Assembly (NCBI RefSeq): GCF_900105595.1
Contig: NZ_LT629784.1
Span: 3,410,001 to 3,474,000 of the forward strand
Origin: Stappia sp. ES.058
Lineage (GTDB): Bacteria; Pseudomonadota; Alphaproteobacteria; Rhizobiales; Stappiaceae
Direction of reading: 5' to 3'
DNA: 64,000 nt
Below, piece by piece: positions 34,851 through 56,363 of this stretch; within the stretch, counting starts at the first letter, position 1, and each line of letters begins with the position of its first letter. Under the pieces are notes generated by a model, which searched no databases, was not told where the DNA came from, and saw only the letters and a list, made by a program, of their open reading frames with translations. The position numbers were made by a program, and so were the translations under genes.

Positions 34851-34902
34851 ATGCGTCCTCCAGAAAATCGGCCCGCGCCGTGACTGGTCGCGGGCGGGAT
34901 GG

Positions 34903-36039
34903 TCAATGTTGCGGTGAGGAAGCCGGGATCGACGCCCGTGCGTCGCTCTCACTGCGCGGCGGCGGCGTCGATTCGCGCACCCGCAGTTCGGGCAGGATCG
35001 GCGCGGGCACCGGACCGACCGGCGCGCCGGAAATCTGGCGCAGCATCAAGGCGGCGGCGATCTTGCCGATCTCGTCGGGCTTGTTCCAGACCGAGGTGAG
35101 CGCCGGCGTGCGGCTCGCCGCGCCGTCGGTGTCATCGTAGCCGGCGACCGCAATGTCGCGCCCGGGCTCCACGCCTGCCCGACGCAGGGCCGACAGCAAT
35201 CCGTGCGCGATCAGGTCGTTGAAGGCGAACACCGCCGTCGGACGCGGCCTGGCGCTCAACAGTTGCCCCACCGCATCGCGTCCGTCCGCCGTCGTCATCA
35301 GTTCGGGGATGTCGAGCTGAGCGGTGACATCGATGCCGGCGTCCTGAAGCGCCAGCTTCCAGCCCAGATTGCGGTCGTGGCCCGACGAGCTTTGCCGCCG
35401 CCCGCCGATCATCGCGATCTGCCGGTGGCCCTGGGCGATCAGATGCGACACGACCATGCGCGCGCCCGCGACGTCGTCGCTGCGCACCACCGGCACGCGG
35501 GCGCCCGGCACGTCCCGGCAAATCAGTGTCACGGGAATACCGCTGTCGGCCAGGCCATTGATGGCCTCGACCCGCGTCCCGACAGAGGCGCAGATCACCA
35601 GCCCGTCGACGCGATGCTGCATCAACGTGTCGATGAAGCGGGTCTGACGATCGACGTCGTCGCGGTGATTGCAAATGAGGACCACCTGGTTCTCGCGGCC
35701 GAGCTCGTCCTCCAGCGCACGGAAAACTTCCGCGAAATAGGGATTGAGAATATCGTGAACCGCGACGCCGATCATGTTGGAGCGCGCGGTGCGAAGCGCG
35801 GCGGCCGAGCGGTTGTAGACATAGCCGGCGTCAAGCGCATGCGCCTTGATGCGTTCGCGCGTCGCCGGCGCGACCAGCGGCGAATCCCTGAGCGCGAGCG
35901 AGACCGTGGCGGTCGAGACGTCGAGCGCCTCCGCCATGTCGCCGAGCGTGAGCCGGCGTGCGCTGTGCCGCCCGCCGGGTTTGCGATCCGACGCCGATGC
36001 CGGTGCGTCCGGCGGTCCTTTCGGCGTCTTCATGCTCAC
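34903..36039 (-). CDS. LacI-family transcriptional repressor
   Basis: A 378-residue regulator. The helix-turn-helix is DMAEALDVSTATVSLALRDS near residue 35, with the hinge helix region RSAAALRTARSNMIGV after it. The ligand domain has the periplasmic-binding-protein fold (NPYFAEVFRALEDELGRENQ, AVAGYDDTDGA). There is a GTG start at 36039 with GAGG seven bases away; the ATG two codons on would also serve. A perfect palindrome (36054-36067) lies just upstream, so it probably represses itself and the downstream dehydrogenase gene. The sugar or acid effector is unknown. Confidence 0.92.
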   Translation of the reverse strand: MSMKTPKGPPDAPASASDRKPGGRHSARRLTLGDMAEALDVSTATVSLALRDSPLVAPATRERIKAHALDAGYVYNRSAAALRTARSNMIGVAVHDILNPYFAEVFRALEDELGRENQVVLICNHRDDVDRQTRFIDTLMQHRVDGLVICASVGTRVEAINGLADSGIPVTLICRDVPGARVPVVRSDDVAGARMVVSHLIAQGHRQIAMIGGRRQSSSGHDRNLGWKLALQDAGIDVTAQLDIPELMTTADGRDAVGQLLSARPRPTAVFAFNDLIAHGLLSALRRAGVEPGRDIAVAGYDDTDGAASRTPALTSVWNKPDEIGKIAAALMLRQISGAPVGPVPAPILPELRVRESTPPPRSESDARASIPASSPQH

Positions 36040-37224: not shown

Positions 37225-38577
37225 ATGAATAACAAGCAGCAGCAGCCGGACAAGGCCGCCGCGGGCACAAAGGGCGCGACAGATATTGGATGGCTCGCCC
37301 GGCGGTCCCTGCACATCGGCCTGCTTTCCTTCGGCGGCCCCGCGGCACAGATCGCCCTGCTGCACAAGGAGTTCGTCGCCGACGGCAAGCGGATTTCGGA
37401 AGCCCGTTTCCTCAATGCCCTGAACTATTGCATGCTTCTGCCCGGACCCGAAGCGCAGCAACTGGCGACCTATTGCGGCTGGATCGTCGCCGGAACGCGC
37501 GGCGGCATCGTCTCCGGCCTCCTCTTCATCGCCCCCGGCGCGATCGCGATGCTGGCGTTGTCCCTCGTCTATGTGACATTTGGCGCGTCTCCGATTGTCG
37601 CAAGCCTCTTCTTCGGCATCAAGGCGGGCGTTCTGGCGATCGTTTTGCAGGCGCTGATCCGGCTCGCCGGTCGGGCAATGACCTCGACAGCCGCCTTTGC
37701 CATCGCGGCCGCATCCTTTTGCGCACTGTTCTTTCTCGACCTTCCCTTTCCGCAGGTGATCGTGGCCGCCGGTCTGTGCGGGCTCGGCTTGCCGCGCCGC
37801 GCGGGCGAGGCCGGACCCGATCCGGTTGACCCCGCACCGCCGGGCCGACACACCTTGCATGCGCGCGCCCTTCGCATCCTGTGCGCCGGCCTCGTCCTTT
37901 GGGGACTGCCCGTGGCCGCCGGTCTCGTCCTGCTGTCGCCCGACCACGTGCTGGCCGATATCGCCGCGTTCTTTTCCACCATGGCTCTGGTCAGCTTCGG
38001 CGGCGCCTATGCGCTGCTGAGCTACATGGCCCAGGTCGCGGTGGAGACCAACGGCTGGCTGACAGCCGGCGAAATGCTCGACGGCCTCGGGCTTGCCGAA
38101 ACGACGCCCGGACCGCTGATCCTCGTCACGCAGTTCGTCGGCTTTCTGGGCGGCCACCGGGCGCCGGCCCCTTTCGATCCGCTGATCGCCGGCATTCTGG
38201 CCGCGGGACTGACCACCTGGGTGACCTTCGCGCCGAGCTTCGTCTTCGTGCTGGCCGGCGCGCCCTACGTCGACCGCATTCGCGAGATCACCTGGCTGTC
38301 GAATGTCCTGTCGGCGATCACGGCGGCGGTCGTCGGCACGATCTTGAACCTTTCGCTCTGGTTCGCGATCAACGTCGTCTTCGCCGAGGTCGGCGCGTTC
38401 GAAGGGGGATGGATTTCCGCGCCCCTGCCCGTCCTCGCCAGCGTGCAGCCCTGGAGCCTGGCGATCGCGGCGGGCGCGGGCGTGATGCTGTTCGCGCTGA
38501 AGCGCGGCATTGCCGAGGTGGTGATCGCGGCAAGCCTGGCCGGCCTTGTCGTCAGGATGGGCGGGCTGTCAGGGTGA
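37225..38577 (+). CDS. chrA: ChrA chromate transporter family protein
   Basis: A 450-residue inner-membrane protein of the long ChrA type, two homologous halves each with about five to six helices. The first half has SFGGPAAQIALLHKEFV and NYCMLLPGPEAQQLATYCGW; the second has SFGGAYALLSYMAQVAV and LAETTPGPLILVTQFVGFLG, matching the duplicated family motifs (GPE/PGP signatures). Known ChrA proteins export chromate by the proton gradient. Other regulators or Chr genes are not seen. The start at 37225 has a good polar N-terminus. The divergent region 37065-37224 holds its promoter. Confidence 0.92.
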   Translation: MNNKQQQPDKAAAGTKGATDIGWLARRSLHIGLLSFGGPAAQIALLHKEFVADGKRISEARFLNALNYCMLLPGPEAQQLATYCGWIVAGTRGGIVSGLLFIAPGAIAMLALSLVYVTFGASPIVASLFFGIKAGVLAIVLQALIRLAGRAMTSTAAFAIAAASFCALFFLDLPFPQVIVAAGLCGLGLPRRAGEAGPDPVDPAPPGRHTLHARALRILCAGLVLWGLPVAAGLVLLSPDHVLADIAAFFSTMALVSFGGAYALLSYMAQVAVETNGWLTAGEMLDGLGLAETTPGPLILVTQFVGFLGGHRAPAPFDPLIAGILAAGLTTWVTFAPSFVFVLAGAPYVDRIREITWLSNVLSAITAAVVGTILNLSLWFAINVVFAEVGAFEGGWISAPLPVLASVQPWSLAIAAGAGVMLFALKRGIAEVVIAASLAGLVVRMGGLSG

Positions 38578-38588: not shown

Positions 38589-39062
38589 CTATTCGCCGGC
38601 CTCGCCATCCTCGGCGTCCAGATCGTCGCCCCTGCGCGAACCGAGGTTCTTCTCGACCTGACGCAGCAGCTTGCGAAGCTTCTTGCGGTCCTTTTCATCG
38701 AGCCCGACAAGCGCCTCGCGCTCCAGCCGCTTCCAGGACGTGTCGACGGTCTCGACAAGAGCCCGTCCCTCGTCGGTCAGGAAAACGCGCGCGAGCCGCC
38801 CGTCGGCCTCCGACGTGGCACGCCTCAAGAAACCCTGGGCGGACAGGCGCGTGACCATCTTGGTGACCGTCGGCGGCTGAACCGCGAGCGTGGTGGCAAG
38901 CTGGCTCATCGTCTGTCCGTCGACATCCGCGAGGATCTTCAGGACGGTCTCCTGGCCCGGATGCAGTCCGATCCGGGCGAGGTGGGTGCCGGCGCGCGAG
39001 CGATGGGCCTTGGCGGCTTGCGCCAGACGGAACGTCACGCTTTTTTTGAAATTGAACGCCAT
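38589..39062 (-). CDS. MarR-family transcriptional regulator
   Basis: A 157-residue winged-helix regulator. The DNA-binding helices lie at TMSQLATTLAVQPPTVTKMV followed by TRLSAQGFLRRATSEADGRL, and the beta wing ends with RVFLTDEGRALVE, which is the MarR pattern. Family members dissociate from DNA on binding phenolic or oxidant ligands. It is convergent with chrA and is at the far end of the seven-gene quinone reductase/amidohydrolase group (166-base gap from its last gene). It may respond to a quinone or phenol linked to those enzymes, which is inference. The C-terminus is acidic and basic mixed (RRGDDLDAEDGEAGE). Confidence 0.92.
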   Translation of the reverse strand: MAFNFKKSVTFRLAQAAKAHRSRAGTHLARIGLHPGQETVLKILADVDGQTMSQLATTLAVQPPTVTKMVTRLSAQGFLRRATSEADGRLARVFLTDEGRALVETVDTSWKRLEREALVGLDEKDRKKLRKLLRQVEKNLGSRRGDDLDAEDGEAGE

Positions 39063-39228: not shown

Positions 39229-39816
39229 TCACCACCTGGAATAAACGGTCTCGACCCGTCTCATGAAACTCGCGCGACTGTCGGCGGACGAACTGTCCAT
39301 GTTGTAATGCGCCAGATAGGTCGACTTGCAGCGCGGCGCGCAGAGCGCGCGAATGCCGCGCAGAACCGTCTTGCGTCCGGGCTCGCCCATCAGCTTGGAG
39401 ACCAGCCACGACGCGCCGCAGGTCGTCACCACGCCGATGCGCTTGATGTGCTGCATGCGCGGACGCATCGGGCTGGTCGCCGTCGGGATCTCGAAAGTGA
39501 CATGCGGCACCCAGACCCGGTCGAGATAGCCCTTCAGCATCGCCGGCAGGCCGAACCACCAGGTCGGATAGACGAAGACGAGCGCCTCCGCCCACAGGAT
39601 GTCGTCGACGTGGGATTCGACCGGAGCACGGTTCAGTTTCGCGTCCGAATAGCGGACCCATTCCGGCTCCAGCATCACGGGATCGAAGCCATCCGCGTAA
39701 AGATCCGTCACGCGCAGCTCATGCCCGCCCTTTTCCAGGGAGGCCCGGACGGTCCCGGCCAAAGCCGTCCCGAAACTGTTCGCGCTTGGATGACACTGAA
39801 TGAGCAGGATGCGCAT
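39229..39816 (-). CDS. Flavodoxin-fold NAD(P)H:quinone oxidoreductase, copy 1
   Basis: A 195-residue FMN/FAD-binding reductase of the Flavodoxin_2 (MdaB/KefF) family. It begins MRILLIQCHPSANSFGTALA, has AEALVFVYPTWWFGLPAMLK and GYLDRVWVPHVTF in the middle, the family dinucleotide region. It would do two-electron reduction of quinones or similar compounds. It is the last gene in a seven-gene run and is a tandem paralogue of the next gene, nine bases apart. The C-terminus (MDSSSADSRASFMRRVETVY) is similar to that of copy 2. Confidence 0.87.
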   Translation of the reverse strand: MRILLIQCHPSANSFGTALAGTVRASLEKGGHELRVTDLYADGFDPVMLEPEWVRYSDAKLNRAPVESHVDDILWAEALVFVYPTWWFGLPAMLKGYLDRVWVPHVTFEIPTATSPMRPRMQHIKRIGVVTTCGASWLVSKLMGEPGRKTVLRGIRALCAPRCKSTYLAHYNMDSSSADSRASFMRRVETVYSRW

Positions 39817-39825
39817 GAAAAGGTC

Positions 39826-40407
39826 CTAGAGCCGCGCCATCTCGGCGTCGACGCGCGACAGGAAGGCCGTTCGGGCATCCGCGTCGGCGCGGTTGAGGTC
39901 GTATTTGGCGAGATAGGCGAGACGCGCGGTCGGCGCGACCAGCGAGCGCAGCACCCGGCGCACGATCCGGCGCGGCGGATCGCCGAGAAAGAAGGCGCGC
40001 CAGCGCGCCCCGCCATAGGTTGTGATGGCGACAAGGCGGCGGATGTGCTGCAGGTTCGGCTTCACCCGTCCGTTCTCCATCCGGAAGGAAACGCCCGGCA
40101 GCAACACCCGGTCGAAATAGCCTTTCAGGATCGCCGGGAAACCGAAATTCCAGACCGGATAGACCAGAACCAGCGCCTCCGCCCGCTGCAATTGCTCGAC
40201 CTGCGAGGCCACCCTGGCCCGGTTTTCCGGAACATCGTGATAGGCAAGCCGCTCCGCCCGGCTCAGGACCGGATCGAAGCCCTGATCATAAAGATCGAGC
40301 ACCTCGACCTCATGTCCCCTGGAAACGAGCGTGTTCAGGGCGCGCTCTTTCAGCGCGGCACAAAAACTCGTTTCCACCGGATGGGCGTAGATCAACAGAA
40401 CGCGCAT
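39826..40407 (-). CDS. Flavodoxin-fold NAD(P)H:quinone oxidoreductase, copy 2
   Basis: A 193-residue Flavodoxin_2 reductase. It starts MRVLLIYAHPVETSFCAALK, with AEALVLVYPVWNFGFPAILK and GYFDRVLLPGVSFRM, and ends in the same SRVDAEM-like tail as its neighbour, so the two arose by duplication. It could reduce a quinone or quinonoid product of the upstream FAD-linked oxidase, or a nitro or azo compound. It lies 12 bases downstream of that oxidase gene and nine bases upstream of copy 1, clearly one transcript. The start at 40407 is the natural family N-terminus. Confidence 0.88.
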   Translation of the reverse strand: MRVLLIYAHPVETSFCAALKERALNTLVSRGHEVEVLDLYDQGFDPVLSRAERLAYHDVPENRARVASQVEQLQRAEALVLVYPVWNFGFPAILKGYFDRVLLPGVSFRMENGRVKPNLQHIRRLVAITTYGGARWRAFFLGDPPRRIVRRVLRSLVAPTARLAYLAKYDLNRADADARTAFLSRVDAEMARL

Positions 40408-40419
40408 CGCGATCGCGCC

Positions 40420-41817
40420 TCAGGACAGGCCGGGAAAGAGATACGTCTGGTCCGACGTGAAGTCGAAGTCCGGGTTCTCCCACGCGATCATCTTGCCCGG
40501 ATTGAGCAACCCCTTCGGATCCGCTTCTTTCTTGAAGGCAAGTTGCACCGCGTCCGTCTGCTTCATGCCGCCCTCTTCCAGCGTGTAGCGATGCGGATTG
40601 AAAATCGGACAGCCGTGCTCCTCGTGGATCCTGATGATCTCGTCGAGCCGCTCTTCCGTCGTGTAACGCACGATCGGCAGGCCGAAGCAGGTGACCTTGC
40701 CGTCGAACCGCACGAACTCCAGGTGACCCAACACCTCGTCGCCGAAGAGATCGGCGAGTTGGACCGCCTTCTTCACGTGATCGGGGAAGGGGTAGAGCAC
40801 CTGCAGGTAGGTGATCGTCGGATCGACCCTGAGGCCGCGCAACGTCGTGTGGTTCCACGTCAGTTCCGGCACCGGCGGCAGGCTCTTGCGATCGCTGTCG
40901 GACGCCTCGTCGGAGCGGTAGACGAGTTCGCCCGCCGCGCGACGCGCCAGGAAGGCGGAGAATGCATCCATCGCGAAGGGCGCAACCATGATCGCGCAGA
41001 CCGACTGGCTGGACCGCAGGAACTTCTTGTGCCGCAGGAAATACTCATACGGGACCGGCGCCGAGATCGGCGCGATTTCCTTGGTCAGAATGCCGTCCTG
41101 ATTGGCAAGCGCATCGGCGAAGCCGGCGGCGTCCGCGAAACTGTCGAAGCCGACGAGCACATCGACCCAGTCGTAACTTGCGGTCAGCGGCATGGTCACC
41201 TCGGTGATGATGCCGTTGGTGCCATAGGCATGGCTGACCTTGTGCAGATCCGACCCCGACAAGGTGAGGACCTGCGGCTCCTCCTCCATCGTCACGACGC
41301 GCAAGGAAAGGATGTTGCCGAAATCCCGCAAGCCGCCCCAGTTGATCGAGCCGATCCCGCCCGAGCCGCCGGCGACGAAGCCGCCGATGGTCGCCGTGCG
41401 ATGGGTGGAGGGATGCATCCTCAGTTCCTGCCCGCTCTCGCGGGTGGCGTCGTCGATGGTCGCCATGATGGCGCCGGCCTCGGCCCGCACATGTCCGCGC
41501 CCGACCTCCAGCACCTTGTTCATCTCGGCGAGATTGAGAACGACCCCGCCCGACAGCGGCATGGCCTGGCCGTAGTTGCCGGTGCCCGCGCCGCGCGTGG
41601 TGACCGGAACGTCATGCGCGTAGCAGGCCTTGAGCACGCGAATCACGTCCGCCTCGCTCGTGGCATTGACCACGATGTCCGCCGTCACCTCGTCGAGCTG
41701 GCGCTTGAGCACCGGCGAGTACCAGAAGAAGTCGCGGCTTTTCTGCCGCACGATCTGCGGGTTGTCCTCGATGGCCAGACCCTCGAGGTCGGCCTTCAAC
41801 GCGGCAATGTCGCTCAT
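40420..41817 (-). CDS. FAD-linked oxidase (GlcD-like, FAD_binding_4)
   Basis: A 465-residue flavoprotein of the vanillyl-alcohol-oxidase fold. The FAD-binding loop is TTRGAGTGNYGQAMPLSGGV near residue 68, and the flavin-binding stretch TATIGGFVAGGSGGIGSINW near residue 140. The C-terminal end KEADPKGLLNPGKMIAWENP is the GlcD-type ending. Such enzymes oxidise 2-hydroxyacids or, in related forms, aldehydes and N-heterocycles. The start at 41817 (MSDIAALKADLEGLA) was chosen by family N-terminus; 40 codons upstream look non-native. The deaminase gene ends 19 bases upstream, and the two quinone reductases follow, so it may deliver electrons to a quinone or act on a deaminated product. Confidence 0.87.
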   Translation of the reverse strand: MSDIAALKADLEGLAIEDNPQIVRQKSRDFFWYSPVLKRQLDEVTADIVVNATSEADVIRVLKACYAHDVPVTTRGAGTGNYGQAMPLSGGVVLNLAEMNKVLEVGRGHVRAEAGAIMATIDDATRESGQELRMHPSTHRTATIGGFVAGGSGGIGSINWGGLRDFGNILSLRVVTMEEEPQVLTLSGSDLHKVSHAYGTNGIITEVTMPLTASYDWVDVLVGFDSFADAAGFADALANQDGILTKEIAPISAPVPYEYFLRHKKFLRSSQSVCAIMVAPFAMDAFSAFLARRAAGELVYRSDEASDSDRKSLPPVPELTWNHTTLRGLRVDPTITYLQVLYPFPDHVKKAVQLADLFGDEVLGHLEFVRFDGKVTCFGLPIVRYTTEERLDEIIRIHEEHGCPIFNPHRYTLEEGGMKQTDAVQLAFKKEADPKGLLNPGKMIAWENPDFDFTSDQTYLFPGLS

Positions 41818-41836
41818 AATCCTGTTTCCCCAGATC

Positions 41837-43165
41837 CTAGGTCGCCATGAGATCGTCGAGTTCGCGAAAATCGGGAAGCTTCCGCGATATCGCGCGCCCG
41901 GCACGCAAGACCGTACGCGCTCCCGCCGGACGCGCAATCAGTTCGTTCCAGTTTCTGGCCCGGAAGACGACCATGTCGGCCGGCGAGCCGACATCGAGCC
42001 GCCCGCGCGTGCTGTCGCCCAGAAGATCAGCGGGCGTCGAGGTCGCGGCGCGGATCCAGTCACCGGACGGATGATCGAGATGCAGGATGCGCACGGCCTG
42101 GGCGTAGACCTCGACCATGTCGAGGTCGCCATAGGCATAAAAGGGATCGCGCGTGTTGTCGGAGGCAACGGCGACGGGAATGCCGCGCGCCTTCATCTCG
42201 TGCAGCAGCGTCACCCCGCGCCAGCGCGGCGTGCGACCGCCCGCGCGATCCATCAGGTACATGTTGCAAAGCGGCAGGCTGACGACGCCGATCCCGGCGT
42301 CTGCGACAAGGTCGAGGGTCCGGTCGACCGCGTCATCGGACTGTCGTGCCAGCGAACAGCAATGGCCGCACACCACCTTGCCGGAGAAGCTGGTCCGGAT
42401 GGCCGCCTCGGCAATCACCCGCAGGGAGGTCGCATCCGGGTCCGCGGTTTCATCCACATGAAAATCGAGCGACAGGCCTCGGCGTTCGGCAGCATGGAAC
42501 ATCGCCTCGACACGATCTTCCAGACCGTCGATCATATAGGTCACCGCACCAAGGCTGCCGCCAGCCTCCGCCGCCCGGTCCGCAATCGACGGCAGGAACG
42601 CCGGATCGTCGAGACTGTCGATCCCGAAGAGTGCGGAGGCCTGAAGATCGATCCGGTCCGCCCACTCCCGACGGATATCCTTGAACACATCCCAGCTGAT
42701 TCCGTCCTGCGGCGGAATGCTGTCCAGATGGGTGCGCATCAAGACGGTGCCATGCGCATGGGCGCAGGCGAGCGCGAACGACATGCGCCGACGCACGTCG
42801 CCGGCAGACCAGCGCGCCTCCCGGTCCGCTTTCACCGCATCAAGCGCGCCCGGAAAAGTGCCGTCGGGATTGGGGCGACGCGACCAGATATGCCCCTTGT
42901 CGAGATGGGTGTGCATGTCGACCAGCCCGGGCAGCACCAATCCGCCGTCGAGATCGACCATCGCCGCGCCGTCGGGATCGATCAACTCGCCGCAGGGCGC
43001 GATCACCGCGACCTCGCCCTTGTCGATCAGGATGTCCGCGCGCCCCAGCCCGTCGCCGATGTGATTGAGAACCCCGGATGTCACGGCGCTTGGAAGCGTC
43101 GCGTTGGCGAGGAGAACCGCGCCGTCGCCCATTGTCAGTTCGCGTGTGTCGATTGCGTCAGCCAT
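41837..43165 (-). CDS. Amidohydrolase of the cytosine deaminase (COG0402) type
   Basis: A 442-residue metal-dependent hydrolase. Metal ligands are visible: LPGLVDMHTHLDKGHIW, the His in SLDFHVDETADPDAT, the His in GKVVCGHCCSLARQ, and the Asp in PVAVASDNTRDPFYAYG, the full pattern of cytosine deaminase and related aminohydrolases. It should remove an amino group from a nitrogen heterocycle or split a cyclic amide. It overlaps the permease gene by eight bases and precedes the FAD-linked oxidase. The true substrate may not be cytosine; isocytosine, hydroxypyrimidine or a creatinine-like ring fit as well. Confidence 0.88.
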   Translation of the reverse strand: MADAIDTRELTMGDGAVLLANATLPSAVTSGVLNHIGDGLGRADILIDKGEVAVIAPCGELIDPDGAAMVDLDGGLVLPGLVDMHTHLDKGHIWSRRPNPDGTFPGALDAVKADREARWSAGDVRRRMSFALACAHAHGTVLMRTHLDSIPPQDGISWDVFKDIRREWADRIDLQASALFGIDSLDDPAFLPSIADRAAEAGGSLGAVTYMIDGLEDRVEAMFHAAERRGLSLDFHVDETADPDATSLRVIAEAAIRTSFSGKVVCGHCCSLARQSDDAVDRTLDLVADAGIGVVSLPLCNMYLMDRAGGRTPRWRGVTLLHEMKARGIPVAVASDNTRDPFYAYGDLDMVEVYAQAVRILHLDHPSGDWIRAATSTPADLLGDSTRGRLDVGSPADMVVFRARNWNELIARPAGARTVLRAGRAISRKLPDFRELDDLMAT

Positions 43166-44030
43166 CCCGTTTGATCGCGCTTTCGTGCCAGCGCCGCAAC
43201 ATCAAATGCGACAGGATGCTGAGGCTCGCGAAAATCACGATCCCCGTCAGCGAGATCAGAACGATCGCGGCGAACATGCGCGGGATGTTGAGACGGTAGC
43301 TGGCTTCCAGGATCTTGAACGCAAGTCCCGACCCCAGCCCGCCCGTTCCCGCGACGAATTCGGCGACGATGGCGCCGATCAGCGACAGGCCGCCGGCGAT
43401 CTTCAGGCCGCCGAGGAAATAGGGCAGCGCGGACGGAAGCCGCAGATGCCACAGGGTCTGCCAGCGGCTCGCGCCATAGAGCTGGAACAGGTTGCGCAGA
43501 TTGTGGTCCGCGGAATTCAGCCCGAGCGTCGTGTTCGACAGGATCGGAAAGAAGGCGACGATCCACGCGCAGATCAGGAGGCCGACGATCTTGGAGGGCA
43601 CATAGATGAAGATCAGCGGGGCGATCACGATCACCGGCGTCACCTGGAGAATGACGGCATAGGGGAAGAAGGACATCTCCACCCATTTCGACTGCGCGAA
43701 GAGCACCGCCAGGCCGACACCGCCGATGGTGGCGATGACGAGCGCGCCGAGCGTGATCTGCAGGGTTACGAGCAGGGCCGGCCAAAGCATCGACCAGTCC
43801 TTCACCAGCGCACCGGCCACCCGGTCGGGTCCGGGCAGAATGTAATGCGGCACCTGATAGGCATCGACGTACCACTGCCAGCCGGCGATGGTGGCGATCA
43901 TCACCGCGGCCGGAAGGGCCCAGCGCGCGACGCGATCGATTCGCGCGCGGCGGAGCTTGTCCGCCTCCGCCGCGTCGAGCGGGGGAAGCGCCGCGGTTTC
44001 AAGGCGGTCCGGTTCGGTCTCTGGCGTCAT
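43158..44030 (-). CDS. ABC transporter permease (TauC/SsuC/ThiX type)
   Basis: A 290-residue inner-membrane permease with about six membrane helices and the EAA loop near the middle (LRNLFQLYGASRWQTLWHLR followed by LPSALPYFLGGLKIAGG). This is the binding-protein-dependent permease type of nitrate, taurine, sulfonate and thiamine-precursor importers. The start at 44030 (MTPETEPDRLE) was chosen because the frame upstream is non-native, adding 62 residues without family likeness. It lies 52 bases downstream of the ATPase gene and overlaps the amidohydrolase by eight bases. Confidence 0.92.
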   Translation of the reverse strand: MTPETEPDRLETAALPPLDAAEADKLRRARIDRVARWALPAAVMIATIAGWQWYVDAYQVPHYILPGPDRVAGALVKDWSMLWPALLVTLQITLGALVIATIGGVGLAVLFAQSKWVEMSFFPYAVILQVTPVIVIAPLIFIYVPSKIVGLLICAWIVAFFPILSNTTLGLNSADHNLRNLFQLYGASRWQTLWHLRLPSALPYFLGGLKIAGGLSLIGAIVAEFVAGTGGLGSGLAFKILEASYRLNIPRMFAAIVLISLTGIVIFASLSILSHLMLRRWHESAIKRDG

Positions 44031-44082
44031 TGCACCCTCTCCGTCAGTCTTGCATGCGCGCCGTTCGACGATCGCGCAGCCT

Positions 44083-44919
44083 TCATGCGCCGCTCGCATC
44101 GCCCGCCATTGCCGCCTGAAGCGCCTCGGACGCACGCCGGCAATGATCGGAGTACAGATGCGAGGTGCGAAAATCCTCCCCACGTGGATAGGGCGCGTCG
44201 ACGGCCAGATCGGCAACCACCCGGCCGGGCCGCGCAGCCATGATCACGATCCGGTTCGACAGGTAGACGCTTTCGAACACGGAATGCGTGACGAAGACCA
44301 CCGTCCAGCCGAACTCCTCCCACAGCCGCAACAAATCATTGTTGAGCCGGAAGCGCGTGATCTCGTCCAGCGCCGCGAAGGGTTCATCCATCAACAGGAG
44401 TTTGGGCTTGGTCACCAGGGCGCGGGCGATCGAGACGCGCATTTTCATGCCGCCGGACAATTCGCGCGGATAGCTTTCGGCAAAGCCCTCCAGACCCACC
44501 ATTTCGAGCGCTTCCATCACCCGGTCCCGGGCGGCGCGGGCGCTCTCGCCCTTCAGCCTGAGCGGCAGATGCACATTGGCGAAGACCGTCGCCCAGGGCA
44601 TCAGCGTCGGCTCCTGGAAGACGAAGCTGATGTCGTGATCCTTCTGCCCGGGACGCTCGCCCGGCCAGACCAGACGTCCGGCACTCGGGCTGGACAGGCC
44701 GGCAACGATCCTGAGCGCCGTCGACTTGCCGCAGCCAGACGGGCCCAGCAGGCTGACGAACTCGCCCTCCCGGATGCTCAAGGACATGTCCTTGAGGGCA
44801 ACGGTCGCGTTGGAAAAGGTCTTGGTGACGCTCTGCAGCGAGACAACCGTTCCGGCCGTCTCGCCGTCGTTCTGCGGGGAAACGGATGTCACGGCGCGAT
44901 CTCCGTCGCGCCGTGACAT
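44083..44919 (-). CDS. ABC transporter ATP-binding protein (TauB/SsuB/ThiZ type)
   Basis: A 278-residue ATPase. Walker A is LLGPSGCGKST near residue 60, the Q-loop is ISFVFQEPTLMPWATV, the signature is ELSGGMKMRVSIARAL, Walker B is LLLMDEPFAALDE, and the H-loop is VVFVTHSVFESVYL. The first 28 residues (MSRRDGDRAVTSVSPQNDGE) are a polar extension. It powers the permease that follows (52 bases). It is 34 bases downstream of the binding-protein gene. No substrate can be deduced from it alone. Confidence 0.93.
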   Translation of the reverse strand: MSRRDGDRAVTSVSPQNDGETAGTVVSLQSVTKTFSNATVALKDMSLSIREGEFVSLLGPSGCGKSTALRIVAGLSSPSAGRLVWPGERPGQKDHDISFVFQEPTLMPWATVFANVHLPLRLKGESARAARDRVMEALEMVGLEGFAESYPRELSGGMKMRVSIARALVTKPKLLLMDEPFAALDEITRFRLNNDLLRLWEEFGWTVVFVTHSVFESVYLSNRIVIMAARPGRVVADLAVDAPYPRGEDFRTSHLYSDHCRRASEALQAAMAGDASGA

Positions 44920-44953
44920 CCGGCAGTGGGTCCAGGCTTGATGCGCACGCCGA

Positions 44954-45997
44954 TCAGTTTCCGGTCAGGGTCTTCTTGAGATCCAGCCCAACGCCCTTGT
45001 TGATGAAATCGAGCGTGTAGCTTTCCTTGATGTCGATGCCGTCCTCGATGACGCCGGCCTTGACCATCTTGGCATAGAAGTCGGCGTTGCGCGCGTCGGT
45101 CATCGCGCCGATGCCCCGGGTTTCGCTGTCTCCGGAATCGACGATGCCGTATTTCTTCATCTGTTCGATGGAAAAGGCGATCTGTTCGGCTGTCATTTCC
45201 GGATTGTCCTTCATGATCAGCGCATTGGCGGCACTGTTGTCACCATAAAGGTAGTTGTACCACCCGATCGCCGAGCCATCGACGAAACATTGCACCGCCT
45301 CGGGCCGATTGGCGATGGTGTCTTCCATCGTCTCGACCGTCGTCGAATAGCTGTTGAACCCGTAGTCGGCGATCAGGAAGACATCCGGCATGAAGCCGCC
45401 TTCGCGCTGGATTGAATAGGGCTCCGCGGTAACATAACCCTGCTGGCCAGCGGTTTCATCCGCAAGAAAGGGTGCCGGGTTGAAGGTATAGGGCCGGCGC
45501 TGCTCGACCGTGAAACCGTACTCGGAGATCATCCACTGGTAATAGGATGCAAAGCCGTTGTCGCCGATCAGGAGCGGCGCGGTCCCCGCCAGGCTCTCCC
45601 AGCTTTCGTATTTGCCCGGATGGGTAAGGATGACCTGCGGCTCCTTCTGGAACAGCGAGCTGACCACCACCACGGGGATCCCCTCGCGCCGCGCGTAGAA
45701 CGCCTGCAGCATGTTTCCGCCCATGTGGAAGTCCATCTTGCCGGCAAGCATCAGGGCGCGGTTGTTGACCTGTGGCCCGCCCGGAACGATCGATACGTCG
45801 AGACCGCAAGCCTCATAGGTTCCGTCGGCCACGGACTGATAGAACCCGCCGTGCTCCGCCTGGGCCAGCCAGTTGGTGCCGAAGGTGACAGCTTCCTGAG
45901 CGGTCGCGCCCGCGGTTCCCGCAAGCATCGCCGCAAGCGCGGACGCCGCAACACCGCACACCGTCCGTGCGCCACCCTTAGTCGTGAATTTCCCCAT
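44954..45997 (-). CDS. ABC transporter substrate-binding protein (NMT1/THI5-like)
   Basis: A 347-residue secreted binding protein with a Sec signal (CGVAASALAAMLAGTAGA, cut near TAQ). The mature domain begins VTFGTNWLAQAEHGGFYQSV followed by ADGTYEACGLDVSIVPGG, the NMT1/THI5 pattern found in binding proteins for thiamine pyrimidine (ThiY), riboflavin (RibY) and other nitrogen heterocycles. The start at 45997 is natural; 33 residues upstream look non-native. No thiamine riboswitch was seen. It heads a minus-strand operon with its ATPase and permease, then catabolic genes, so the ligand is probably a heterocycle that is broken down. Confidence 0.9.
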   Translation of the reverse strand: MGKFTTKGGARTVCGVAASALAAMLAGTAGATAQEAVTFGTNWLAQAEHGGFYQSVADGTYEACGLDVSIVPGGPQVNNRALMLAGKMDFHMGGNMLQAFYARREGIPVVVVSSLFQKEPQVILTHPGKYESWESLAGTAPLLIGDNGFASYYQWMISEYGFTVEQRRPYTFNPAPFLADETAGQQGYVTAEPYSIQREGGFMPDVFLIADYGFNSYSTTVETMEDTIANRPEAVQCFVDGSAIGWYNYLYGDNSAANALIMKDNPEMTAEQIAFSIEQMKKYGIVDSGDSETRGIGAMTDARNADFYAKMVKAGVIEDGIDIKESYTLDFINKGVGLDLKKTLTGN

Positions 45998-46409
45998 AGC
46001 GCTGTACGCCTCCAATAGATGTTGCAATCGATACGGGCCGCCGTTGACCGGCCGCCGCTTTGTGATTGGCCACCCCCGCAAGGCACGTGGCGGCAACGCA
46101 CGGGGGCCCCCCGTTCGACCGAACGCGCGCCGTAAACGCCTTTCAAAGCAATCGGCGTGCCATGCATCAGCCCCTGCTTCGCGGAACGGGCCCGGCCGGA
46201 CCTCCTCTTCCGGTCTCGCCGGATTTCGTGTGGTCGTGGCGGGTCGCGAAACCTGCGACGCTCCACACTAGCGCAGGTTCGCCGCACAAAAAAGCGCCAT
46301 GCTTGATACAAAAATGCGCCTGAAAACATGCTCTTTTGCGCAAAAAGGAATTCCTTCCAGCCTGCAATTGCCTAGGGTCAGGGATTGACCGGCGAAGGAC
46401 ACAAAACCG
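45998..46409. promoter_or_regulatory. Divergent control region of the heterocycle operon and ridA
   Basis: 412 bases without a gene between the binding protein (minus) and ridA (plus). Two perfect 12-base palindromes abut near ridA: TTTTGCGCAAAA (46334-46345) and AAGGAATTCCTT (46345-46356). GCGC is repeated in AT-rich context around 46290-46340 (aaaaaagcgcc, aaaatgcgcc), possible regulator half-sites. A long G/C dyad ACGGGGG-c-CCCCCGT lies at 46100-46114. I looked for a thiamine or purine riboswitch in the minus-strand leader and did not see one. Confidence 0.5.
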
Positions 46410-46793
46410 ATGAAGACCATCACACCACAAGACATCGCCCCGCCATTCGCCCGCTACAGCCATGCCGTGGAAATCCCGCCCGGTGCGCGCACGCTGGTGT
46501 GCTCCGGCCAGCTCGGGATCTCGCCGGAAATGGAGGTTCCGGACGGGGCGCAAGCCCAGACGGCGCTGTGTTTCGAAAACATCGGCGCTATCCTGCGCGA
46601 GGCCGGGATGGACTACGCCGACATCGTGCGCATCAATGCCTTCGTGACTGATCGCGCGCATCTGGCCGGCTATATGGCCGCCCGCGACCGCTTCACCGGC
46701 ACACCGCCGCCGGCCTCCACCTTGATGATCGTCTCGGGTTTCGCCCGGCCCGAATTCGTCGTCGAGATCGAGGTGATCGCGGCCCGCGTCTGA
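46410..46793 (+). CDS. RidA-family protein
   Basis: A 127-residue RidA/YjgF/Rut-C-like protein. The hallmark ends are GARTLVCSGQLGISPEMEV near residue 28 and the C-terminal VEIEVIAAR; the middle has FENIGAILREAGMDYADIV and the Arg-binding region. Such proteins hydrolyse enamine or imine intermediates or aminoacrylate; RutC is the version in pyrimidine breakdown. It is the first gene divergent from the heterocycle operon and is followed by the 8-oxoguanine-deaminase-like gene. Which imine it acts on is unknown. Confidence 0.9.
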   Translation: MKTITPQDIAPPFARYSHAVEIPPGARTLVCSGQLGISPEMEVPDGAQAQTALCFENIGAILREAGMDYADIVRINAFVTDRAHLAGYMAARDRFTGTPPPASTLMIVSGFARPEFVVEIEVIAARV

Positions 46794-46981
46794 CTGGGGT
46801 TGCGGACCACCCGGCGATGCGCTCCCTCGCGAAGCCGTTGCCGGGGTCCGTTAGGCGATGCTAATTTGACGGTGGCGGCATGGCGACGTGCCGCAAGGCT
46901 CCACTCCCTGTCTGGAACTCGGGCGGTCACCGGGATCGCTAGCCAAGCCTGCAGGTCGACAAGACGACAGGACGAACCGGC

Positions 46982-48325
46982 ATGCGCAAATGGATCAAGA
47001 CACCGCTCGCAATCCTCGCGGACAACGCGGACGGCGGCGTCGTCGTCGACGGCGGAAAAATCGTGGAATGCGTGGCCGCGGGCGCGGAACCGGACGCCCC
47101 CGTCGACGCCACCTTCGACGCGTCCTCTCACGTGGTGATCCCGGGTCTGATCAACACGCATCACCATTTCTTCCAGACGCTGACGCGCGCGCATCCAAGC
47201 GCGATCAACAAGGAGCTGTTTCCCTGGCTCCAGTCGCTCTACCCGATCTGGGCGAAGAACGTGACGCCGGAGACCTTCCGGATGGGAACGCGACTTGCGC
47301 TTACCGAACTGATGATGTCGGGCTGCACCGCCGCCTCCGATCACCACTATCTCTTCCCCGACGGGCTGGAGAACGCCATCGACATCCAGGTCGAAGAGGC
47401 AACCCGGCTCGGCATCCGCATGACGGTGACGCGCGGCTCGATGAACCTCAGCCAGAAGGACGGCGGCCTGCCGCCCGACAGCGTCGTGCAGGACGAGGAC
47501 ACCATCCTCGCCGACTGCGAGCGCGTGCTGTCGCGCTATCACGACACCCGCGAGGGCGCGCGCATCCAGGTGGCGCTTGCGCCCTGCGCGCCCTTCACCG
47601 TGACCAAGCGGCTGATGCGCGAGAGCGTGGCGCTCGCCGAACGGTTCGACTGCCGGCTGCACACCCATCTCGGCGAGACCATCGACGAGGACGACTATTG
47701 CCTGCACCACTTCCAGTGCCGGCCGGTCGACTATCTGGAGGACTGCGGCTGGCTCAACGACCGCGTCTGGCTCGCCCACGGCATCCACTTCAACGACGAC
47801 GAGATCAGGCGGCTGGGCCATGCCTGCGTCGGCGTGTGCCACTGCCCGACCTCCAACATGGTGCTCGCCTCCGGTCAATGCCGCACCAGGGAGCTGGAGG
47901 CCGCCGGCTGCCCGGTCGGGCTCGGCGTCGACGGATCGGCTTCCAACGACAATTCCAACCTGATGGAAGGCCTGCGCCACGCGCTGATGATCAACCGGCT
48001 GACCTATGATGCGGCGAGCGTGACCCACCACGACACCTACCGCTGGGCGACCGAAGGTTCCGCCCGCTGCCTCGGACGCGACGATCTCGGCTCCCTCACG
48101 GTTGGAAAGCAGGCGGATCTTGCAATGTATACGCTGGACGAACTGCGCTTTTCCGGCTCCGGCGACCCGCTGGCCGCCCTCATCCTGTGCGGCGCCCACA
48201 GCGCGGACCGGGTGATGGTCGGCGGCGAATGGACGGTCGTCGACGGCGATCCCGTCAACATCGACGTCGAGAAGCTGCGCGCCGAACATGGCGCCGCCGC
48301 GAAGCGTTTTCTGGAAGCGCTTTAA
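46982..48325 (+). CDS. 8-oxoguanine deaminase-like amidohydrolase
   Basis: A 447-residue amidohydrolase of the ATZ/TRZ and guanine-deaminase-like branch. The metal motif is PGLINTHHHFFQTLTRAHP near residue 55, further ligands in FDCRLHTHLGETIDEDDYC (near 220) and WLAHGIHF, and the Asp in VGLGVDGSASNDNSN near residue 320. The last motif and the NTHHHFFQ stretch are those of 8-oxoguanine deaminase, which makes urate from 8-oxoguanine; isoguanine or related purines are also accepted by family members. It is 188 bases downstream of ridA, on the same strand. The start at 46982 fits the family N-terminus. Confidence 0.88.
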   Translation: MRKWIKTPLAILADNADGGVVVDGGKIVECVAAGAEPDAPVDATFDASSHVVIPGLINTHHHFFQTLTRAHPSAINKELFPWLQSLYPIWAKNVTPETFRMGTRLALTELMMSGCTAASDHHYLFPDGLENAIDIQVEEATRLGIRMTVTRGSMNLSQKDGGLPPDSVVQDEDTILADCERVLSRYHDTREGARIQVALAPCAPFTVTKRLMRESVALAERFDCRLHTHLGETIDEDDYCLHHFQCRPVDYLEDCGWLNDRVWLAHGIHFNDDEIRRLGHACVGVCHCPTSNMVLASGQCRTRELEAAGCPVGLGVDGSASNDNSNLMEGLRHALMINRLTYDAASVTHHDTYRWATEGSARCLGRDDLGSLTVGKQADLAMYTLDELRFSGSGDPLAALILCGAHSADRVMVGGEWTVVDGDPVNIDVEKLRAEHGAAAKRFLEAL

Positions 48326-48333: not shown

Positions 48334-49203
48334 CTAAGCGATCCGCCCGCTGTCGGATGAAGTGCCGAAGACAGCAGATGCAACGACAGCTGCCGCACCG
48401 CGATAGGCCGTTGTAGCGGCTGCGGCGCGCGGGTCTGTTTTCTCGCCGGAAGCGCTCGACGGATCGACGGCGCCGATTGGCGCATTGTCTGCGCCGGCCG
48501 GGTCATCGGCATCGCCGGCCTGTTCTTCCGCGCGCTTCTTTTGCAGTTCCGCCTGGGCCTCGCTGCGCTGCTGGCTTGCCTGCGCCGCCACCTGGCGGTC
48601 CTGCGGCGAGGGCTCCGCCGGCGCAAGGGCTGCACGAATGACGATCTCCATCTTTCGGATCGTCTGCTCCGGCTCGCGCTCCGCCGAGGCGTCGATCGGC
48701 ACTTCGCCCGAAACCGCGTAGCGCTTGCCGTCGGGCCCGCGGGCATATTCGTAGCTTGGCGAGCCGGCATAGGGCCCGCCGACGCTGGCATGCGCCTGCT
48801 CGTGCTGCTTGACCTCGGCGTCGCGCTTCTTGAGATCGCGGACCTGGCCTTCCTCTTCCTGAGAAAGCTCATCGCCCTCGGCAGCGCCAGGCCCCTTGGT
48901 CTCTTCGTCTTCAAAGGCCGGCTGTGCCGCAAGCGCGGACGTCTGCGGCGCCGCCGGATCGCGTTCGTCCCTTCGGGCCCGGGCGCTGGCGTCGCCGGCC
49001 TGCAAGGCGGCGACCGCGTCGGCGCGCAAGGTCGTGACCGCCGTGACGTCCGCGCCCCCTTCGCCACCAACCGCCGAAGACGGCGCGCGCGGTTTTACCG
49101 CCGCCTCCGCGCCGGAAGCCGCGCCAGATGACGGCTCGACACGCGCGGCGCGGGTCGCGGCGAGCGCGACCGTGGAGCCTTGGGAATGCAGACCTGCGAA
49201 CAT
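48334..49203 (-). CDS. SprA-related putative zinc metalloprotease, HExxH protein
   Basis: A 289-residue protein, low in hydrophobic residues. The conserved block is [20 protein letters not shown] near residue 125, followed by [20 protein letters not shown] and [12 protein letters not shown]; this is the SprA-related family with the HExxH zinc motif HEQAH. Around it are long Ala/Pro/Ser/Gln-rich and charged stretches ([20 protein letters not shown]), probably disordered. No signal peptide is clear. The family is widespread but has no established substrate to my knowledge. It is convergent with the 8-oxoguanine deaminase gene (8 bases apart) and divergent from the creatininase gene. Confidence 0.85.
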
Positions 49204-49381: not shown

Positions 49382-50191
49382 ATGTCCGACCTTCCCCGCC
49401 GCTTCTGGCATGAGATGACCGCATCTGATTTCGCGGAAAACGACACCGCATCGTGGATCGCGGTCCTGCCGGTCGCCGCCATAGAACAGCACGGCCCGCA
49501 TTTGCCGGTCTTCACCGACACCTGCATCGCGGAAGGCCAGATCTCGCGCGTTCTGGAACTGCTTCCCTCCGATGTGCCGGCAACCTTCCTGCCCGTGCAA
49601 GCGGTCGGCAAGTCGAACGAACACATCTCCTCGCCGGGCACGCTGACCCAGTCCTGGGAGACCGTGACGAGGGCGTGGGAGGAGATCGGCGAAAGCGTGC
49701 ACCGCGCCGGCATCAAAAAGCTCGTGCTCGTCACCTCGCACGGCGGCAACGTGCCGATCATCGACATCGTCGCCCGCGAATTGCGGGTGAAATACGACAT
49801 GCTGGTCACAGCGACCGGCTGGGCGCGTTTCGGCCAGCCGCATGGCCTCTTTCCGCAAGAGGAATTCGCCTATGGCATCCACGGCGGCGATATCGAAACC
49901 TCGATCATGCTCCATCTGCGCCCCGACCTCGTGAAGATGGACAAGACCGCGGACTTCCGCTCCACCCAGCTCGAATTCATCGAGGAATTCAAGCACCTGC
50001 GTGGCCACGGCCCGGCACAATTCGGCTGGAAGGCGCAGGATCTCAACCCGGCCGGCGCAGTCGGAAATGCGGCAGCCGCCACCAGAGCCAAGGGCGAGGC
50101 CTCGCTCGACCATGCCGCGCGCGGCTTCGTCGATCTCCTGAAGGACATCCACGCCTTCGACATGACCCGGCTGTGGACGCCGAAGGCGTGA
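49382..50191 (+). CDS. Creatininase-family amidohydrolase
   Basis: A 269-residue metal enzyme of the creatinine amidohydrolase family. The metal-binding sequence AAIEQHGPHLPVFTDTC lies near residue 35 (Glu, His and Asp ligands), with LVTSHGGNVPIIDIV near residue 115 and AYGIHGGDIETSIMLHL near residue 165, the full family pattern. It would open a cyclic amide such as creatinine or a related lactam. The start at 49382 gives MSDLPRRFWHEMT, typical; the frame is open further but non-native. It is convergent with the ArsC-like gene. With the nearby deaminases it suggests cyclic-amide turnover. Confidence 0.9.
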   Translation: MSDLPRRFWHEMTASDFAENDTASWIAVLPVAAIEQHGPHLPVFTDTCIAEGQISRVLELLPSDVPATFLPVQAVGKSNEHISSPGTLTQSWETVTRAWEEIGESVHRAGIKKLVLVTSHGGNVPIIDIVARELRVKYDMLVTATGWARFGQPHGLFPQEEFAYGIHGGDIETSIMLHLRPDLVKMDKTADFRSTQLEFIEEFKHLRGHGPAQFGWKAQDLNPAGAVGNAAAATRAKGEASLDHAARGFVDLLKDIHAFDMTRLWTPKA

Positions 50192-50658: not shown

Positions 50659-52362
50659 ATGGCAGCAAGAAATATCCGCAAGGCCGACAGCGGCGCCGGA
50701 CTGCGCCAGAACCTCAGGCTGGCGAGCGGGCTGGTGCTGCTCACCTTCGCCTTCACCCATTTCCTCAATCACATGCTGGGCATCTGGTCGCTCGAAGCGA
50801 TGGAGGCCGGACGCCTTGTCTTTCTCGCCGTATGGCGCAGTGCGCCGGGCGAAGCGGTGTTGCTGGCGAGCCTTCTCACCCATGTCTCGCTGACGCTCTG
50901 GAAGACCGGGCGGCGGCGGACGCTGCGCCTGTCCGTCTGGCAATGGGCGCAGCTCCTGCTCGGCCTCGGCATTCCCTTCCTCTTGATCCCCCATGCCATT
51001 GGCACGGGCGGGCTCGCCGAGCGCTTCGGCTATGAAGATACCTACAAGAACGTTCTCAGCATCCTGTGGCCCGGCCTGGTGCTGAACCAGACCGTCCTGA
51101 TGCTGCTGGTGTGGACGCACGGCATGATCGGCCTGCACTTCTGGCTCAGGGTGAAGCCGGGCTACAAGCGCTGGTTCCCGATGCTGCTGTCGGTCGCCCT
51201 TGTGGTGCCGGTGCTTGCCTCCTGGGGCTGGATCGCTACGGCGCGTCGTTTGAAGCTGACGGAAAACGTCCCGTTTCCCCTGACCGGTGAGATGATCGCC
51301 TGGTCCGACCCGCTGATCATGTGGCTGAAATGGGGGTTCTACGGCCTCGTCGGCCTCGCGTTGGCCATCGTAGCGTTGCGGATGATGCGTCGGCGGTTCG
51401 TTCAGACCATCGAGATCACCTATCCCGGCGACCGCAAGGTCCGCTCCCCCGCCGGACCGACGCTTCTGGAGATCAGCCGGATGAACGGCATTCCCCATGC
51501 CGACGTCTGCGGCGGCCGCGCCCGCTGCTCGACATGCCGCACGCGCATTCTCGACGGCGCCGACACTCTGCCGCCACCCGCCGCAAACGAGCAGAAGGTG
51601 CTCGCGCGCATCGGCGCGCAGGATGACATCCGCCTGGCCTGCCAGATCCGGCCGCAATCAGCCCTGAAGGTCCAGCCGCTCGTGCCGGCGCGCGGCGCGA
51701 CAAAGGCGTCCGGGCTTGCCGGCGACGCCTATCAGTGGGGGGTGGAACAGCCGGCCGCGATCCTCTTCGTCGACTTGCGCAATTTCACCGGCCTTTCGGA
51801 ACATCGCCTGTCCTATGATGTCGTATTCCTGCTCAACCGCTACCTCGGCGAAACGGCCCATGCGATCGAGGCCTGTGGAGGATATGTGGACAAGTTCATC
51901 GGCGACGGTGTGATGGCGATCTTCGGCATGACCGACGGTCTCCAGGCAGGGTGCCGCAACGCGCTTGCCGCCACCAATGCGATCGCCGAACGCATGGAAC
52001 ACCTCAACGCCGAACTCGCCGGCCAGCTCGACGCGCCCTTGCGGGTGGGCATGGGACTGCACGCCGGGCCGGTGATTCTCGGACGGATCGGTGCGCTGGA
52101 CACCAATGGCGCGAATGCGCGCATCACCGCGCTTGGCGATGTCGTGAACACCGCGAGCCGGCTTGAATCGAGTTCCAAGGAACTCGGCCATGCGCTTGTC
52201 GTCTCCACCACGGTTCTCACATCCGCCGGCTACAGCTGCGACGCGACCCGGGAGCGGGAAATCCCGATTCGCGGTAGAAAGGACCCCTTGCGCGTCTATG
52301 CGCTCGACCCGCCCTCTCCGCTTGCAGACATGTTTGCACCCGCCGCGAAGCCTTCTTCATGA
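50659..52362 (+). CDS. Membrane haem-type domain / 2Fe-2S ferredoxin / class III adenylate cyclase fusion
   Basis: A 567-residue fusion. Residues about 20-245 form six membrane helices with several buried histidines (THFLNH, LTHVS, IPHAIG, WTHGMIGLHFW), resembling quinone-reducing cytochrome b subunits. Residues about 255-340 are a plant-type ferredoxin domain: cysteines in CGGRARCSTCRTRI and CQIRP. The last 190 residues are a class III cyclase: metal Asp in FVDLRNFTG, VDKFIGDGVMAIFG with the Lys expected for ATP use, and Asn/Arg in VVNTASRLESS. It should make cAMP in response to redox or quinone state. The start at 50659 has GAGGG upstream. The gene overlaps the downstream deacylase (ATGA). 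Confidence 0.9.
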   Translation: MAARNIRKADSGAGLRQNLRLASGLVLLTFAFTHFLNHMLGIWSLEAMEAGRLVFLAVWRSAPGEAVLLASLLTHVSLTLWKTGRRRTLRLSVWQWAQLLLGLGIPFLLIPHAIGTGGLAERFGYEDTYKNVLSILWPGLVLNQTVLMLLVWTHGMIGLHFWLRVKPGYKRWFPMLLSVALVVPVLASWGWIATARRLKLTENVPFPLTGEMIAWSDPLIMWLKWGFYGLVGLALAIVALRMMRRRFVQTIEITYPGDRKVRSPAGPTLLEISRMNGIPHADVCGGRARCSTCRTRILDGADTLPPPAANEQKVLARIGAQDDIRLACQIRPQSALKVQPLVPARGATKASGLAGDAYQWGVEQPAAILFVDLRNFTGLSEHRLSYDVVFLLNRYLGETAHAIEACGGYVDKFIGDGVMAIFGMTDGLQAGCRNALAATNAIAERMEHLNAELAGQLDAPLRVGMGLHAGPVILGRIGALDTNGANARITALGDVVNTASRLESSSKELGHALVVSTTVLTSAGYSCDATREREIPIRGRKDPLRVYALDPPSPLADMFAPAAKPSS

Positions 52363-53540
52363 CACGGAACAGACCCATGCCAGAGATCCTTACCGCCCGC
52401 GACATGCTGGCCCGCCTCGTAGGCTTTCCCACCGTTTCCAGCGTCAGCAATCTCGATCTCGTCGCCTTCGTCGAGGACTATCTCGCCGGTCACGGTGTGG
52501 TGGCGACCCGGGTTTACGACGAAACCGGCACGAAGGCCGCGCTTCACGCCTGCATCGGACCGCAGGTCGACGGCGGCGTGGTCCTGTCCGCCCACACCGA
52601 CGTGGTGCCGGTCGAGGGACAGGAGTGGACGCGCGATCCCTTCACGCTCCACGAGGAAGCCGGCAGGCTTTACGGGCGCGGCACCTGCGACATGAAAGGC
52701 TTCGCGGCCCTCATGCTCGCCGGTGTTCCGGAGATGGTGAAGGCCGACCTGAAACGGCCGATCCACCTGGCGCTCTCCTACGACGAAGAGGTCGGCTGTC
52801 TCGGCGCACCGCCGATGATCGAGGACATGTTGTCCGACGGCCCCCGGCCCGACTGTGTAATCGTCGGCGAACCCAGCATGATGAAGGTGATCACCGGCCA
52901 CAAGGGCACGAGCCTCCTCAAGATCACGGTGCGCGGCCATTCGGTGCATTCCAGCCAGTGGGACCGGGGCGTGTCGGCGGTCGCCAATGCGGCGCGGATC
53001 GTGACCTGGCTCGACGACCGCACCCGCGAAAACCGCGACACCGCAGATCGCGACCTGCCCTTCGATCCGCCCTTCACCACCTTGCATTGCGGCATCATCG
53101 AAGGGGGAACGGCCGCGAACATCGTCTCCAAGCACTGCGAATTCGTGACGGATATCCGCAGCCTGCCCGACGAGACCATAGACATGTGGCAGGACCGGCT
53201 GGAAAGTTTCGTCGCGCGGCAGATCCTGCCGGAGATGAAACGGGTGACCCCCGAGGCCGGCGTCACCATCGAGCGCCTGGCACACGTTCCGGCCCTGCGC
53301 CCGGAGGAAAATGGCGCGGCGGAAACGCTGGCGCGGCGCCTGACCGGCGACAACGGCGAGCACATGGTCGTCTATGGAACCGAGGCCGGACAGTTTCAGG
53401 CACGCGGGCTTTCCGCGATTGTTTGCGGTCCGGGTTCCATCGACCAAGCACACCAGCCGGATGAATTCATCGACCTCACCCAGTTGCAGGCCGGCAATGC
53501 TTTCATGTCGCGGCTGGTCGACACATTGAGCGATGGATAA
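52359..53540 (+). CDS. argE: M20 family deacylase, acetylornithine-deacetylase-like
   Basis: A 393-residue zinc amidohydrolase. The zinc motifs are SAHTDVVPV near residue 78, GRGTCDMKGFAA near residue 107, and the Glu pair in SYDEEVGCLGAPPM near residue 142; the dimerisation segment RGHSVHSSQWDRGVS is also present. ArgE releases ornithine from N-acetylornithine. The protein may instead act on other N-acyl amino acids brought in by the peptide-type ABC system that follows 176 bases downstream. It overlaps the cyclase stop by four bases. Met7 (MPEILTARDML, 52377) is a second start. Confidence 0.88.
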   Translation: MTRNRPMPEILTARDMLARLVGFPTVSSVSNLDLVAFVEDYLAGHGVVATRVYDETGTKAALHACIGPQVDGGVVLSAHTDVVPVEGQEWTRDPFTLHEEAGRLYGRGTCDMKGFAALMLAGVPEMVKADLKRPIHLALSYDEEVGCLGAPPMIEDMLSDGPRPDCVIVGEPSMMKVITGHKGTSLLKITVRGHSVHSSQWDRGVSAVANAARIVTWLDDRTRENRDTADRDLPFDPPFTTLHCGIIEGGTAANIVSKHCEFVTDIRSLPDETIDMWQDRLESFVARQILPEMKRVTPEAGVTIERLAHVPALRPEENGAAETLARRLTGDNGEHMVVYGTEAGQFQARGLSAIVCGPGSIDQAHQPDEFIDLTQLQAGNAFMSRLVDTLSDG

Positions 53541-53715
53541 TCCAGAGGGTGCTGGACGGACACCCGTCAGCTTGCTTAGATGCAGCTTCCAGAGACAGCG
53601 ATTGCTGGCTTGAATTGTATCCTGCCCGGATCCACGCATCGGTAAAAGCACCTATAAGCGGAACCGGATGCGACGGTCGGGATTGCCGAAACGCAAAAGA
53701 CGCCAAGAGGGGACT

Positions 53716-55299: not shown

Positions 55300-55321
55300 G
55301 CGGACATCCTTCACCGCAATC

Positions 55322-55346
55322 GGCCCGGCGGGATTTCCGCCGGGCC
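55322..55346 (+). other. Strong intercistronic stem-loop after the binding-protein gene
   Basis: GGCCCGGCGG and CCGCCGGGCC form a perfect ten-base stem with a five-base loop (gattt), between the binding-protein stop and the first permease start. It should partly stop or stabilise the message so that the binding protein is made in excess. Confidence 0.65.
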
Positions 55347-56356: not shown

Positions 56357-56363
56357 GGCCGAC

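Follow-up and report, generated by a model that had tools for sequence, protein, structure and literature searches.

A conserved gene set probably serving uptake and oxidative breakdown of a folate-derived pteridine in Stappia sp. ES.058

Results

The window analysed here, a stretch of 64,000 nucleotides from Stappia sp. ES.058 (contig NZ_LT629784.1, positions 3,410,001 to 3,474,000; the host genome is a single contig of 4.63 Mb), carries a putative gene set for import and breakdown of a heterocyclic compound. Seven of its genes lie on the minus strand and encode, from the 5' end, an NMT1/THI5-type periplasmic binding protein of an ATP-binding cassette (ABC) importer (44954..45997), the ABC transporter ATPase (44083..44919; PF00005, 117 bits) and permease (43158..44030; PF00528, 89.7 bits), a CodA-like amidohydrolase devoid of the CodA glutamine (41837..43165), a flavin adenine dinucleotide (FAD)-binding enzyme of the PF01565 type (40420..41820), and two flavodoxin-fold NAD(P)H oxidoreductases (39826..40407 and 39229..39816; PF02525, 116 and 114 bits, respectively). 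On the plus strand there are a RidA-family protein with Ser replacing the catalytic Arg (46410..46793; PF01042, 80 bits) and an accessory 8-oxoguanine-deaminase-like amidohydrolase (46982..48325; 656.4 bits vs the cut-off of 532). Scoring against domain and family profiles confirmed that these nine genes, named in an earlier sequence-only reading of this DNA, are all open frames of the families given there. That reading missed, however, a creatininase-family amidohydrolase (49382..50191, plus strand; PF02633, 240.8 bits vs 31.3) and a MarR-family regulator (38589..39062, minus strand; PF01047, 41.8 bits), both of which also recur at orthologous loci.

The seven minus-strand genes had been described as spaced by -8 to 52 bases and as very likely a single operon. 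When gene starts were picked by comparison with orthologues, the same spacing was obtained: 34 bases between the binding-protein and ATPase genes, 52 between ATPase and permease, -8 between permease and amidohydrolase, 16 between amidohydrolase and FAD gene, 12 between the latter and the first flavodoxin gene, and 9 between the two flavodoxin genes (the permease start is an internal ATG and therefore approximate). With such gaps the seven genes very likely form one transcription unit, a view also supported by the conserved gene order, and the MarR gene product is its likely regulator. A promoter-like block, GCTTTTTTGTGC-N7-CTGNGNTA, is located 5' of the binding-protein gene (46269..46295, minus strand), shows conservation among other members of the family and has a single exact match in the whole genome. 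Its core, GCTTTTTTGTGC, was exact in six of nine aligned divergent regions, carried one change in two, and was not seen in the remaining one (L043).

The FAD-binding enzyme is 95% identical to its Stappia stellulata counterpart and is a full-length orthologue, at 66% identity, of the protein of PDB entry 6v42. The title of 6v42/6v43, an entry of 2020, names it a flavin oxygenase involved in folate catabolism, and on this basis we predict that the window enzyme oxygenates a folate or pterin. Among the nearest relatives of 6v42 (L195-L198, 84-89% identity) all nine genes of the arrangement seen here were present in four of four fetched loci; the window locus differs in having the 8-oxoguanine-deaminase-like gene and an SprA-related gene inserted between those for RidA and creatininase.

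The sequence-only reading had proposed a check of gene-order conservation in relatives. Gene presence was scored in a sample of 199 genomes of the order. The FAD gene was found in 67 of them (E 1e-80; for G036, G144 and G171 no match exceeded 50% identity) and the amidohydrolase gene likewise in 67 (E 1e-70), the two occurring together in 62 genomes and each alone in five; as the genomes are related, the corresponding Fisher p (3e-39) serves as no more than an indication. At a cut-off of E 1e-120, 16 of 385 genomes of the class had the FAD gene, and with 6v42 as the query a match was obtained in 142 of 146 genomes of one genus (E 1e-100; G228 and G326 only at 43-50%).

Forty of the 67 FAD-positive loci of the order, selected largely among the highest-ranking matches, were fetched and homologues within 9.5 kb were counted. 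In 33 of the 40 loci the genes for binding protein, ATPase, permease, amidohydrolase, FAD enzyme and flavodoxin share a strand and follow each other in this sequence, and the layout thus exceeds chance. Individual counts were 38 for the amidohydrolase and the ATPase, 35 for the binding protein, permease and RidA, 39 for flavodoxin (two copies in 13, one in 26, none in one locus), 25 for creatininase, 24 for MarR and 16 for the 8-oxoguanine-deaminase-like gene. A second set comprised 112 distinct loci clustered by similarity, some of them cut by contig ends and five being variant plasmid loci; it yielded 106 ATPases, 104 binding proteins, 99 amidohydrolases, 89 creatininases, 85 RidA proteins, 36 LysR and 29 MarR regulators and 18 8-oxoguanine-deaminase-like genes, while a looser one-by-one search raised the amidohydrolases to 109 and RidA to 99.

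The CodA-like enzyme scores well above the cut-off of NCBIfam PRK07583, named cytosine deaminase (619.7 bits vs 403), and matches E. coli CodA and AtzC profiles across most of its length. In all 109 homologues at these loci, the metal and proton-shuttle residues known from CodA (H62, H64, H215, E218, H247 and D314) are kept. However, the position of CodA Gln157, after strand 3, is occupied by G (48), P (47), A (8) or S (6), and by glutamine in none; the position of the GuaD-type glutamine is Lys, Asp315 is replaced by Asn and Trp320 by Phe, each in 109 of 109. The window enzyme further differs from CodA and AtzC by an HTHLDKG motif. The glutamine is essential in both CodA and GuaD (PMC12828455). 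In the 8-oxoguanine-deaminase-like enzyme, which exceeds its equivalog cut-off, the GuaD-type HxHxxQ glutamine is kept in the window and in 21 of 21 homologues found at these loci; the protein is a putative 8-oxoguanine deaminase.

A comparable alteration was found in RidA, where Ser stands at the position of the catalytic Arg in 101 of 101 aligned rows; among the four solved proteins shown, Ser103 aligns with Arg in three and with Asn in the fourth. Imine hydrolysis by RidA needs this conserved arginine (PMC4433059). The gene scores 25.8 vs the RutC cut-off of 169.1. The creatininase-family gene, in turn, does not reach the creatininase equivalog TIGR04448 (84.5 vs 235), and its score for mycofactocin MftE (94.1 vs a cut-off of 172) is the higher of the two. 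The previous assumption of two deaminases plus a RidA carrying out plain cytosine or guanine chemistry is not supported, since the CodA-like enzyme is without the essential glutamine and RidA without the imine-hydrolysing arginine.

Variants of the gene set were encountered on plasmids. Four enterobacterial loci (two of Klebsiella, one each of Rahnella and Pantoea) combine a PDR/VanB reductase with the amidohydrolase, RidA, creatininase, importer and an FAD gene of 39-41% identity, with no flavodoxin match in any of the four, whereas a Comamonadaceae locus has flavodoxin in place of this reductase. These plasmid records (L159, L179, L180, L181 and L183) represent a module variant keeping the creatininase, FAD and importer core. 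Three of the variant amidohydrolases had PRK07583 as their best match, yet under its cut-off (229.9, 298.1 and 334.2 vs 403). In the Rhodobacterales plasmids L160 and L163, a 2-oxoglutarate/iron oxygenase and a creatininase are added within the same gene run. Second FAD genes (43-51% identical), accompanied by creatininase, importer or both at the same or nearby loci, were observed in L167-L170, L177 and L074, which suggests sister pathways for other substrates.

Several neighbouring genes were also recorded. In the window, the SprA-related gene (48334-49203, minus strand) separates the 8-oxoguanine-deaminase-like gene from the creatininase gene, as it does in L041 and L043; a chromate transporter gene (37225-38577, plus strand) adjoins that for MarR, with a homologue next to MarR in L041 too. 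Further downstream lie genes of a 2-hydroxyacid dehydrogenase and a LacI-type regulator (33882-34952 and 34903-36039, both on the minus strand), whose relatives recur near the operon in 18 and 10 of the 112 loci, respectively. Nothing indicates operon membership for an M20 gene of the acetylornithine deacetylase type and the dipeptide-type ABC importer that comes after it (52359-57362, plus strand). Elsewhere, in 14 of the 112 loci (e.g. L089:549-3815), the surroundings of the FAD gene include a DAO/GCV_T dehydrogenase that carries a folate-binding aminomethyltransferase domain, and a tie to one-carbon units is possible. On Rhizobium johnstonii pRL12 (L038:1896-5692) the creatininase gene adjoins a molybdenum hydroxylase cluster (PaoABC, XdhC) that could hydroxylate a heterocycle, and in Mesorhizobium (L091, L138, L141) the operon adjoins cobalamin genes (CobO, CobU and CobD representatives), probably through one shared ancestry.

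Discussion

The results presented here make it probable that the operon serves the uptake and oxygen-dependent degradation of a folate-derived pteridine, be it folate itself, pteroate, or a pterin in free or dihydro form; a folate or pterin is more likely as the substrate than cytosine or creatinine. In the order of steps that we infer, the ABC importer would bring the pteridine into the cell, and the flavodoxin-fold reductases would deliver electrons from NAD(P)H to either the pterin ring or the flavin. Oxygenation of the ring or of the carbon of the C6 side chain by the FAD enzyme would come next. Hydrolysis of amidine or ring C-N bonds might then fall to the glutamine-less amidohydrolase and, in loci that have it, to the 8-oxoguanine-deaminase-like enzyme, a member of a family with activity on 2-amino-4-oxo-pyrimidine rings. 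The creatininase-fold enzyme would open a cyclic amide, and the serine-type RidA could deal with a reactive intermediate that bears no carboxylate. Repression of the operon is probably exerted by MarR and lifted once an intermediate builds up.

A number of observations weigh against this proposal. The folate link depends on a single PDB title, and no data-bearing paper on it was found among the matches listed in the open literature searched; with 66% identity between the orthologues, a shift of substrate is possible. Carboxypeptidase G, p-aminobenzoyl-glutamate hydrolase and an Arad3529-type deaminase were all absent from the annotated neighbour representatives, though no targeted search for them was made, the nearby M20 gene scores as an acetylornithine deacetylase, and a riboswitch was looked for and not found. 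Moreover, neither type of reductase is seen at the Agrobacterium plasmid loci L162 and L184, at Pseudosulfitobacter L182 or at the order locus L073, which weakens the electron-donor argument; the first three also count against a strict swap of reductases.

A different substrate is suggested by the binding protein. It has the NMT1 fold of the ThiY/THI5 pyrimidine binders, and the solved proteins closest to it in fold and sequence are binders of thiamin and of a pyrimidine of the thiamin type, formylaminopyrimidine (FAMP), which supports the earlier expectation of a heterocyclic ligand. The operon could then break down imported thiamin or a related pyrimidine (hydroxymethylpyrimidine, FAMP), with the amidohydrolase taking off the 4-amino group, the FAD enzyme oxidising the hydroxymethyl arm and the creatininase-fold enzyme acting as a deformylase. 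We regard this as unlikely, as the binding protein is just 16% identical in sequence to those binders, the orthologue of the FAD enzyme is filed under folate catabolism, and no TenA- or ThiD-like gene is present among the annotated neighbours (no targeted search was made). Hardly more can be said for another redox-active heterocycle, such as pyrroloquinoline quinone, a flavin or an oxidised purine, which the quinone-reductase-like enzymes would reduce and the flavin oxygenase cleave: the same folate title speaks against it, and PqqT is clearly more distant from the binding protein than are the thiamin and FAMP binders. Catabolism of cytosine, isocytosine, guanine or creatinine, put forward in the sequence-only reading, is the least probable, for although NCBIfam names two of the enzymes cytosine and 8-oxoguanine deaminase and the nearest solved sequences to the creatininase-family gene are creatinine amidohydrolases, the replaced active-site residues and the unreached creatininase equivalog speak against it.

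Breakdown of a folate-derived pteridine may also be compared with known pathways. Variovorax sp. F1 degrades folic acid via carboxypeptidase G and a pterin deaminase, and so shares bacterial folate breakdown and an amidohydrolase-type deaminase with our proposal; its deaminase, however, is orthologous to Arad3529, and neither 'creatininase' nor 'ABC transporter' appears in the main text of that work (PMC9513972). The Rut pyrimidine pathway (RutA-G) resembles the locus in its reductase-fed flavin oxygenase, RidA-family protein and hydrolases opening N-containing rings (PMC7662398). The window FAD enzyme, however, belongs to the PF01565 type, and RutA is a flavin oxygenase of another type.

A broader possibility, which we put forward tentatively and hold to be rather less than an even chance, is that the ten genes constitute a complete, unpublished aerobic pathway opening and mineralising the pteridine ring, in which the glutamine-less CodA-fold amidohydrolase and the serine-type RidA would perform reactions new to both families, and that versions of this module in Rhodobacterales and Enterobacterales, in which reductases are exchanged and 2-oxoglutarate oxygenases are added, would serve related heterocycles.

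The system had been called possibly undescribed, which is doubtful, because the PDB entry, a solved orthologue of the FAD enzyme, already names the role of that enzyme. What makes the present analysis valuable is the complete gene set, its distribution and its misnamed enzymes. Folate is ubiquitous, and among the matches listed in the open papers searched no description of bacterial dismantling of its pteridine ring was found. The clade filed as cytosine deaminase (109 members checked) and its RidA partners are without the residues that their names imply, so that several enzymes of the set carry misleading names. The locus would offer a defined and widely conserved gene set for breakdown of the pteridine ring.
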